Position numbers and translations under genes: made by a program | From: Pontibacter diazotrophicus | Lineage (GTDB): Bacteria > Bacteroidota > Bacteroidia > Cytophagales > Hymenobacteraceae | DNA length: 64,000 bases | Direction of reading: 5' to 3' | Assembly: GCF_003367245.1 (NCBI RefSeq) | Contig: NZ_QRGR01000001.1 | Coordinates: forward strand, 186,001 to 250,000 | Shown here: positions 15,541 through 53,835 of the stretch, piece after piece | How positions within the stretch are numbered: position 1 is the first letter of the stretch | Layout of the letters: each line of letters opens with the position of its first letter | Notes under the pieces: model-generated | The model's input: the letters and a program-made list of their open reading frames with translations, nothing else | What the model was told of the DNA's origin: nothing | Databases searched by the model: none

Positions 15541-15568
15541 GCTGAAGCTTCTGATTATAAAAAACAAG

Positions 15569-15607
15569 ATCGGTAGAGAGCTGCAAAGCTGCCTACCGAT
15601 TTTTTTG
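15569..15607 (+). terminator. Terminator of adk-obgE
   Basis: ATCGGTAG (15569-15576) pairs with CTACCGAT (15593-15600), with inner AGCTGC/AGCT pairing, followed by seven T. Confidence 0.88.
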
Positions 15608-15636
15608 TAATGAATGGTTAAATGGCAGTAAAACCT

Positions 15637-15798
15637 TGCCGTTGTTGTGTGTTCTCACCAATAACTTAATCGGCAAAAGGAGTGGTAACTGTTTTATGTT
15701 AAAATAGCAGAGGAGGGGGCTAAGGTAGCTAAAGCCGAAACAGCAGGAGTTAGAGTAAAGGCAGTTATAGTTGTTGGTGAGAACCCACAACAACGGCA
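15637..15798. repeat. REP-like inverted pair of self-palindromic units (GTTGTTG type)
   Basis: Two 30-base arms, 15637-15666 and 15769-15798, are inverted copies matching at 28 of 30 positions. Each arm is itself a hairpin: GTTGTTG with CAATAAC on the left and GTTGTTG with CAACAAC on the right, around a TGTTCTCAC-like loop. About 100 bases separate them. No reading frame is supported. The layout of small palindromic units in inverted pairs is that of REP/BIME elements. A copy at another locus would confirm it; none was seen elsewhere in this window. Confidence 0.7.
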
Positions 15799-15850
15799 GA
15801 GGCTATAGCTCAGCTAACCTAAGTATAAAGCCTTGCAAGCACATTCAGCT

Positions 15851-15880
15851 ATTCAGTCATTCAAAATTCAGGTATTCAAA
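15851..15880 (+). repeat. 30-bp AT-rich block, copy 1
   Basis: A degenerate tandem of 7-8 bases (ATTCAGTC, ATTCAAA, ATTCAGGT, ATTCAAA). The same block, differing at one base, occurs at 53765-53794, again just downstream of REP-like palindromes. It is preceded by a further ATTCAGCT at 15843-15850. Confidence 0.75.
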
Positions 15881-15970
15881 ATTATCAGATGTCAGAATGG
15901 CACAAATGAGGGTTTGGCAAGTTAATTGACAAAACAAAGAAGACTTATTAACCTAACTTTTTAAGGCATT

Positions 15971-53348: not shown

Positions 53349-53588
53349 GCGTTTTTAGTAATGGTGGTCGTTTTAAATAATCTGCAAAATTCGTAAATAA
53401 ATGGCAGCTTTTAAAGGTTAATCTGCTAATTGTTAAATGGCTTGATTGTTAAATGGTTGGTGCTGGTAGAGAAGGGGAAGCGAGTTGGGTATGTGAAGCT
53501 TTATGCTGCTTTTATCAAATATGCGCAAGTATGAGAGGCAAACTTTTTAAGAGGCGTTGCTATGTGATTCATTAACTGACCTAGAAAT
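53349..53588. other. lysS upstream region with TTAAATGG motifs
   Basis: No gene supported. It carries the lysS promoter and a direct repeat of TTGTTAAATGG (about 53430-53455). A related GGTTAAATGG occurs at 15616-15625 before the other REP-like pair. Confidence 0.5.
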
Positions 53589-53743
53589 AGTCCCAGCGGG
53601 ACGACCTGTTGATAGAAAATCATTCTTGGCACTTCTTAAGCTCCAGAGGAGCGACCTGTTGATGCATCTCAAACAGACCGCTCCTCTGGAGCTTAAGGTG
53701 CCTATGGAACATCAGGCTATCAACAGGTCGTCCCGCTGGGACT
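53589..53743. repeat. Nested REP-like palindromic cluster (BIME-like)
   Basis: Outer arms 53589-53615 and 53717-53743 are perfect 27-base inverted copies, each containing the palindrome GTCCCAGCGGGAC followed by the tail CGACCTGTTGATAG. Inner arms 53635-53653 and 53679-53697 are perfect 19-base inverted copies holding CTCCAGAGGAG; the left one is followed by the same tail, CGACCTGTTGATG, and the right one by a decayed form. So four palindrome-plus-tail units form two nested inverted pairs. REP elements mobilised by TnpA_REP proteins look like this. No transposase gene is nearby. Confidence 0.85.
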
Positions 53744-53764
53744 TTTGCACACATCCTCTTTGTT

Positions 53765-53794
53765 ATTCAGTCATTCAAAATTCAGTTATTCAAA
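53765..53794 (+). repeat. 30-bp AT-rich block, copy 2
   Basis: Matches 15851-15880 at 29 of 30 bases (one T for G). It begins 22 bases after the REP-like cluster and runs into the A-rich end of the next terminator. Confidence 0.75.
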
Positions 53795-53797
53795 AAT

Positions 53798-53835
53798 AAA
53801 AAAAGGCTCCCGCAGGTATAAACCCACGGGAGCCT
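53798..53835 (-). terminator. Terminator of the gene at 53861-54889
   Basis: AGGCTCCCG (53804-53812) pairs with CGGGAGCCT (53827-53835) with inner GGT/ACC pairing; on the minus strand a T-run follows. Confidence 0.85.

Follow-up and report, generated by a model that had tools for sequence, protein, structure and literature searches.

Cyanobacteria, Xanthomonas, Beggiatoaceae and Bacteroidetes carry short tandem arrays between genes for which no agreed origin exists (PMC4692102; PMC4679880). For example, the GGGAATC and GGGGA(C/T)T heptamers of Xanthomonas and Nostoc are intergenic, form inverted pairs and lie closer to the 5' neighbouring ORF regardless of its orientation; the GGGAATC repeats are reported to be generally unassociated with mobile elements, and neither 'four helix' nor 'S23' occurs in the main text of that paper (Rehm, 2015; PMC4692102). 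The TAACTGA direct repeats of Beggiatoaceae, cyanobacteria and five Bacteroidetes are heptamers near start codons, patchily distributed across phyla and mostly running forward towards the start codon, for which a translational role has been proposed (MacGregor, 2015; PMC4679880).

A second described system is the intervening sequence (IVS) of 23S rRNA. The IVS of Coxiella is ~430 nt long and holds one S23-type ORF between terminal inverted repeats that form a stem; this 28-bp stem is cut by RNase III, and rRNA IVSs, which are sporadically distributed, have been proposed to be transposition remnants or mobile elements (PMC4990558). In CPR bacteria, ORFs termed 23S_rRNA_IVP also lie within rRNA insertion sequences (PMC11270868, a 2024 paper), and cas loci have been reported to hold 18 such genes (PMC3936711). 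In the open-licence literature, which leaves subscription papers and preprints outside its scope, we found no paper joining the arrays with a four-helix-bundle gene. If arrays and four-helix-bundle S23 proteins are indeed tied, both gain an explanation.

The locus described here is a 64,000-nucleotide stretch of Pontibacter diazotrophicus DNA (the window), in which two ATTCAG blocks, 15851-15880 and 53765-53794, lie 38 kb apart and differ at one base of 30, as the initial annotation had observed. We consider it probable that these blocks are arms of a family of inverted 7/8-base arrays, and that the window copies are gene-less remnants or relatives of a mobile element that carries a PF05635 gene. 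The arrays extend beyond the blocks first noted (Table 1). Allowing ≤3 mismatches, ATTCAGTCATTCAAAATTCA has three matches in the window, as against zero in 100 dinucleotide shuffles, and the block occurs at 56 places in its own genome (G000, 6.4 Mb) against none in a reversed control, which bears out the suggestion that it belongs to a repeat family. The exact 20-base word is rare in the phylum (2 of 395 genomes, its own included), and the block itself is not palindromic. The palindrome arms that precede it, for which a spacing of 22-53 bases had been given, end at 15798 and 53746, leaving distances of 52 and 18 bases.

On the other side of the palindromes, the TTAAATGG motif was found where it had been placed, at 15618-15625 within TGAATGGTTAAATGG and inside two copies of ATTGTTAAATGG at 53429-53456. 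Alone it is a weak marker, with three matches in the window for 2.2 expected; a 21-base pattern of it has 38 matches against 16 in the reversed control, and a 26-base double pattern has no match across the genome. The two sides carry unlike words at both sites. A partner array lies on the TTAAATGG side and such brackets recur across species, in keeping with the earlier idea that the block is the boundary of something larger. The window genes match GTP1_OBG, GrpE and a class II tRNA synthetase in Pfam, the last labelled lysS here. Upstream of grpE, at 15890-15921, an inverted box of TGCCA-TGGCA type followed by TTGGCAAG recurs across the genus and is a candidate promoter or operator.

Table 1. 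Repeats, palindromes and hairpins at the two sites of the window.
Feature	Position	Strand	Remark
Terminator-like hairpin with T run after obg	15568..15606	+	Left border of the variable spacer; like terminator in 39/41 genomes
Left-hand partner TGAATGGTTAAATGG	15611..15625	+	Directly after obg terminator; same place in G025; inverted arrays here in other species
Inverted GCCGTTGTTG palindrome arm pair (15637-15666, 15769-15798)	15637..15798	.	Separate REP-like insert between arrays
Right-hand ATTCAG array (first block)	15843..15883	+	Outer end CAAAATT towards grpE promoter; orthologous place in G025 and other relatives
Left-hand partner array TTAATCTGCTAATTGTTAAATGGCTTGATTGTTAAATGG	53418..53456	+	Upstream of lysS-like gene
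REPIN-like inverted CAACAGGTCGTCCCGCTGGGAC arm pair with inner hairpin	53586..53746	.	Separate repeat family
Right-hand ATTCAG array (second block)	53765..53799	+	Beside terminator of gene ending 53861; G025 also has array
Terminator-like hairpin beside second block	53804..53835	.	Arms 53804-53817 and 53822-53835

Arrays of this kind also enclose a gene. In the window's own genome, a PF05635 gene (C47:3692-3988) lies exactly between two ATTCAG arrays, forming a unit (L006, G000:C47:3626-4050) whose protein scores 57.1 bits against PF05635 and 80.4 bits against TIGR02436. The genome holds four PF05635 copies, far fewer than gene-less arrays. A small PF05635 gene is likewise found between brackets of GAGTGAAT type in G008, G012 and G013, in the gap beside a gene that we take to be coaD, and is broken in G012. 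Of the genomes sampled, 39 of the 41 in the genus and 116 of the 148 in Bacteroidota have PF05635 genes, as against none of 14 control genomes. The window's own two sites hold no PF05635 gene, and none was found at these sites in relatives (40 obg-grpE stretches; 30 lysS loci including G000).

The arms of such genes match each other. We read 86 PF05635 loci (56 from the genus and 30 from the phylum, the latter the best-scoring ones and not a random sample), of which 78 entered the arm test; L310, L352, L354, L357, L359 and L361 were left out for their short or broken frames, L367 because it could not be located and L376 for its length. Comparison of the left arm with the reversed right arm gave a mean of 17.04, as against 8.06 (sd 0.34) when arms were permuted, and 0 of 20,000 permutations reached the observed mean; the 49 genus rows and the 29 phylum rows each gave 0 of 20,000 as well. 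Fifty-seven genes exceeded 12.5, the 95th percentile of mismatched arms, and 21 lay at or below it; measured against its own percentile, the phylum set had 18 of 29 above. As a control, 123 neighbouring genes of the same loci gave 7.49 against 7.40 (4910/20,000), with three above 12.5.

Arm similarity also follows the protein. Among pairs of copies at different loci, similar arms were found in 71% of those with 65-80% protein identity (n=70) and in 4/4 above 80%, as against 2% at 50-65% and at most 1% below 50% (Spearman 0.20; 0/1000 permutations). Nineteen copies at one locus, whose flanks we assume from their translations to encode a thiolase and an acyl-CoA dehydrogenase, form one clade (a single state change on the tree), in which at least four arm words occur with matching partners, for example TAGATGTTAGATTTTAG, ACACAAGACACAAG, ATCACGTATCACG and GACAAAAGAC. 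Thus, both arms appear to have been replaced while the gene stayed. The arm test at this locus, with 14 of the 19 copies, gave 15.1 against 10.6 (0/20,000); five rows from a locus taken as mraY-murD gave 15.6 against 11.5, which was not significant (1172/20,000). In the PF05635 tree, which has few columns and many open forks, L006 clusters (SH-aLRT 95) with copies that bear ATTCA words and lie elsewhere, at another locus; this grouping suggests that the gene moved along with its arms.

Copies on plasmids allow occupied and unit-free sites to be compared. The PF05635 gene is present in 30 plasmid records, mostly of cyanobacteria and also of Riemerella, Gemmatirosa and Azospirillum. Twelve loci were retrieved, all cyanobacterial; all 12 annotated copies lie between protein genes, and their arms match (0/20,000 permutations), eight scoring above 12.5, two at 12.5 and two below, one of the last (L405) having its arrays in direct orientation. 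Several of the arm words are G-rich (GGGAACA, GGGAGTA, GGGTGTA). The genes of L405, L412 and L415 lie inside CRISPR operons, twice as cas6-gene-cas4 and once as cas10-gene-cmr3. The protein of a Bacteroidota copy, L383, is 58-59% identical to those of the plasmid copies L405 and L407, a likeness that may reflect transfer between phyla.

Relatives were sought for six of the 12 plasmid loci, and occupied and unit-free records could be compared at seven sites. The clearest is that of Trichormus variabilis and Nostoc linckia, in which flanks 98.1% identical enclose, in the occupied record, a 420-base unit with both arms between two genes; the GTAATTAA of the empty site is found on either side of the unit as GTAATAAA and GTAATTAA. 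The second such site has GGTTCTAAAT and GATTCTAGTT, alike at 7 of 10 bases, where the empty record has GGTTCTAGGTT. Target duplication is, therefore, possible at two of the seven sites, going by the aligned bases, and imperfect at one. The other five showed no clear duplication on alignment: in three of them 11, 13-16 and 42 bases differ, a fourth has an ATG overlap of 3, and the partner record of L412 has 273 bases of other sequence in place of the unit. Units of one family, 78-82% identical over their full length, occupy three different sites. Insertion, as read from these alignments, is seen for the cyanobacterial copies only.

Sites that carry part of a unit were found in addition to occupied and empty ones. 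L045 has only the right ATTCAG arm where L208, L241 and L360 carry the gene, L426, at the site of L414, has a left arm followed by a gene cut short after its first part, and L428 has array-like sequence on both sides, with the gene absent, at the site of L409. The blocks of the window resemble these remnants and may, judging from this likeness, share such an origin.

When folded, the L006 unit has its two arms paired (z -3.76), and its type of protein is modelled with a pLDDT of 94. The model matches 2rld, of the S23 family (E 2e-5), followed by 2gsc; when protein sequences were compared with those of known structures, only 2rld was significant. Chains of Avd, the accessory protein of diversity-generating retroelements (4dwl, 8ub7 and others), gave Foldseek TM-scores of 0.66-0.81 with E values of 0.04-0.2, a range in which unrelated four-helix proteins score alike. 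The predicted four-helix fold is thus like that of Avd, but identity is 10-14%, and the two are compared by fold only.

Like the 23S rRNA IVS as described for Coxiella, intact array units have an S23 (PF05635) ORF and terminal inverted repeats able to pair. Unlike it, L006 and the Pontibacter PF05635 loci examined lie between ORFs, and their arms are degenerate tandem arrays whose word varies among relatives; the array unit is accordingly not classed as an rRNA IVS. In view of the ORF and the inverted ends that the two have in common, we propose that the array unit is an IVS-like selfish unit adapted to the gaps between protein genes, and we regard it as akin to the rRNA IVSs. Such a unit would insert between genes and be tolerated there since only the gap between neighbours is filled. 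Its arms, like those of 23S rRNA IVSs, would form a stem by pairing in RNA or in single-stranded DNA, and the four-helix-bundle protein is predicted to bind the arm stem and to be required for movement. The two arms would be held alike through conversion or template switching between them. If the gene were then lost, paired or single arms would remain, within which REPINs and other DNA could settle, as may have happened at both window sites. How units move and how their arms stay matched we infer from these patterns. Telomerase-like tailing of broken ends had also been considered as a source of arrays and was abandoned once gene-bearing units were found.

It is tempting to extend this proposal. 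Tentatively, and with rather less confidence than for the window itself, we envisage a widespread class of bacterial mobile DNA whose sole gene is an Avd-like four-helix bundle and whose ends are inverted tandem arrays that change their word in concert; the heptamer and octamer arrays found between genes in Bacteroidota and cyanobacteria would be its arms and relics, as perhaps would the GGGAATC repeats of Xanthomonas and the TAACTGA repeats of Beggiatoaceae. If true, this offers a way to predict which repeats between genes are relics, and a reason for the presence of such genes in CRISPR and other operons. The tie points to a mobile unit for which no transposase gene was seen in the units read, and it raises the question of how two separate arms stay identical while their sequence changes completely between related species.

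The same data could also be accommodated if the mobile unit were a MITE with arrays as its ends, the transposase that moves it being unrelated and the four-helix-bundle gene a cargo passenger. Gene-less brackets are indeed common, the units read contain no second gene, and the possible target duplications, seen at the two sites in gene-bearing cyanobacterial copies and not in gene-less inverted brackets, would suit such a mobile element. Against it stands the finding that arm similarity tracks protein identity across different loci, and we consider this explanation unlikely.

Rather improbable, in turn, is the view that these are ordinary STRR-like repeats generated by replication slippage in non-coding gaps, which four-helix-bundle genes merely tolerate or exploit. 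STRR is the name used for cyanobacterial repeats, and the arrays are, like those, degenerate tandems of 7-8 base units within intergenic DNA, which speaks for this view. By eye, the sister species G013 and G062 differ in the number of array units, a further point in its favour. Several unrelated 5-mers (GAGTT, AAGTA, AGGGG and TAGGT) are enriched at a spacing of 7-8 in intergenic regions around grpE in 41 genomes, and there are therefore further array words beyond those studied here. In addition, the same-site arms of 46 ATTCA bracket pairs are not more alike than different-site arms (1905/20,000 permutations; 6680 within genomes). These pairs likewise lend no support to foldback copying of one arm into the other, though the gene-bearing elements do have matched words.

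What slippage fails to predict is the orientation of the arrays. The survey covered loci from six genomes within the genus, together with 34 named loci from Pontibacter, Pedobacter, Dyadobacter, Saprospiraceae and Pelobium; because loci were selected by word, the counts speak to orientation and not to frequency. ATTCA arrays of at least two units numbered 194, of which 168 were intergenic, 17 lay in called ORFs and nine at locus edges. Among 119 array-bearing intergenic regions, 46 held an inverted pair, in which the first array faces left and the second right. A lone array was seen in 71 regions, two right-facing arrays ('++') in one and three arrays ('-++') in one, and the reversed order of a pair was found in 0 of the 119. 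Some loci are counted twice in the 168 arrays and 46 pairs, namely L039 = L244, L049 = L243 and L053 = L250 among the pairs, with possible double entries among the arrays (L041 and L044 versus G007:C64 and C1). ATTCA arrays share with the GGGAATC repeats, as described, a short tandem structure, an intergenic location, inverted pairing and a rule of placement at gene edges, and differ from them by the tie to a four-helix-bundle gene.

Nor does slippage predict sites with and without a unit of gene plus arms, or matched left and right words that differ among species at one locus. The coaD gap is bracketed by differing words in 30 species (by eye). In favour of the mobile-element reading, too, among spacers of at least 100 bases the left-right match of the gene-less coaD brackets was 11.42 within species against 9.03 across species (20 rows; 3/20,000 permutations), and that of the obg-grpE brackets 9.63 against 8.06 (27 rows; 29/20,000). 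In G015 and G017, two words appear by eye to be nested in mirror order in the coaD gap, with GAGTGAGT outside and TTGTTAAATGG inside.

Host-regulator sites, kept at gene edges by selection for transcription, translation or chromosome structure as proposed for TAACTGA, are a very unlikely account of the arrays. They do lie at gene edges: the CAAAATT end points towards the nearer ORF in 140 of the 168 intergenic arrays, at a median distance of 10 bases, with gene starts here, and in the palindrome-region counts given below, taken from a simple ORF caller. A block is also present at obg-grpE in several species. Starts and stops are, however, faced about equally (81 and 87 of the 168), and AATTT stands before the outermost TGAAT whether an array faces a stop or a start, in a consensus anchored on the first TGAAT, so that only the preceding bases are informative. 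Unlike the TAACTGA repeats as described, the ATTCA arrays are inverted brackets that look to starts and stops alike, and a translational role was dropped on this ground.

Against a regulatory site, furthermore, 41 of 59 genomes (the window's own among the set) have no match to the block at ≤1 mismatch, and related species hold different words at the same site. The obg-grpE spacer from terminator to promoter was obtained in 39 of 41 genomes; eight of these are empty (21-27 bases), 10 have a right-hand ATTCA array, and others show, by eye, brackets of TTGTTAAATGG / CAATTTAACAATT. At the lysS-like gene, 30 species were compared by eye: an ATTCA array is present in G000 and G025 and, more weakly, in G059, and sequence related to TTAATTGNTGATTGTTAAAT occupies the left position in many of them.

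That TTAAATGG, the palindromes and the ATTCAG block form a single element, as the initial annotation had proposed from the same order of parts at two sites 38 kb apart, has next to no probability, since an ATTCA array occurs in only one of 25 intergenic regions holding the palindrome family of the 53.6-kb site, and arrays and palindromes vary independently among related species. The block is in fact common without palindromes, the outcome that the initial annotation had said would make the association accidental: of 20 other ATTCA array regions, none holds the 53.6-kb palindrome and one holds the GCCGTTGTTG palindrome. The palindrome-region count scored no TTAAATGG array, yet it missed the window's own left array and so carries little weight for that side.

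The palindromes are a matter apart, and, as had been noted, the two clusters are unrelated in sequence. The GCCGTTGTTG family has 10 genomic places at ≤3 mismatches. The CAACAGGTCGTCCCGCTGGGAC family has 101 (51 forward, 50 reverse), many as inverted pairs ~130 bp apart; only 53586-53746 is REPIN-like, an inverted REP pair in many copies (about 50), which is not of the array family. At the lysS-like site, where 520 bases were read in each of 30 species, the window's palindrome is found only in G000, and the sister species G025 has kept the array but has another palindrome. The obg-grpE site of other species carries the array but lacks the palindromes, and among the spacers printed the GCCGTTGTTG palindrome is present only in G000, G025 and G007. 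Palindromes and arrays likely share sites because the non-coding gaps that suit one also suit the other.

A third REP-like payload, ATCCTGTTAAGGATCTTG, was seen in the obg-grpE spacer, in opposite orientation in G012 and G021 versus G006, G008, G014 and G023. The reverse comparison scored above the forward one in 8/8 cross pairs and above shuffles, narrowly so for G006-G021. Inversion of the segment, as in an inverton, may be the cause, but independent REP insertion in either orientation explains these opposite orientations equally well, the payload being itself a REP family. A payload related to ATCCTGTTAAGGATCTTG was also recognized, by eye, at the lysS-like site of G025.
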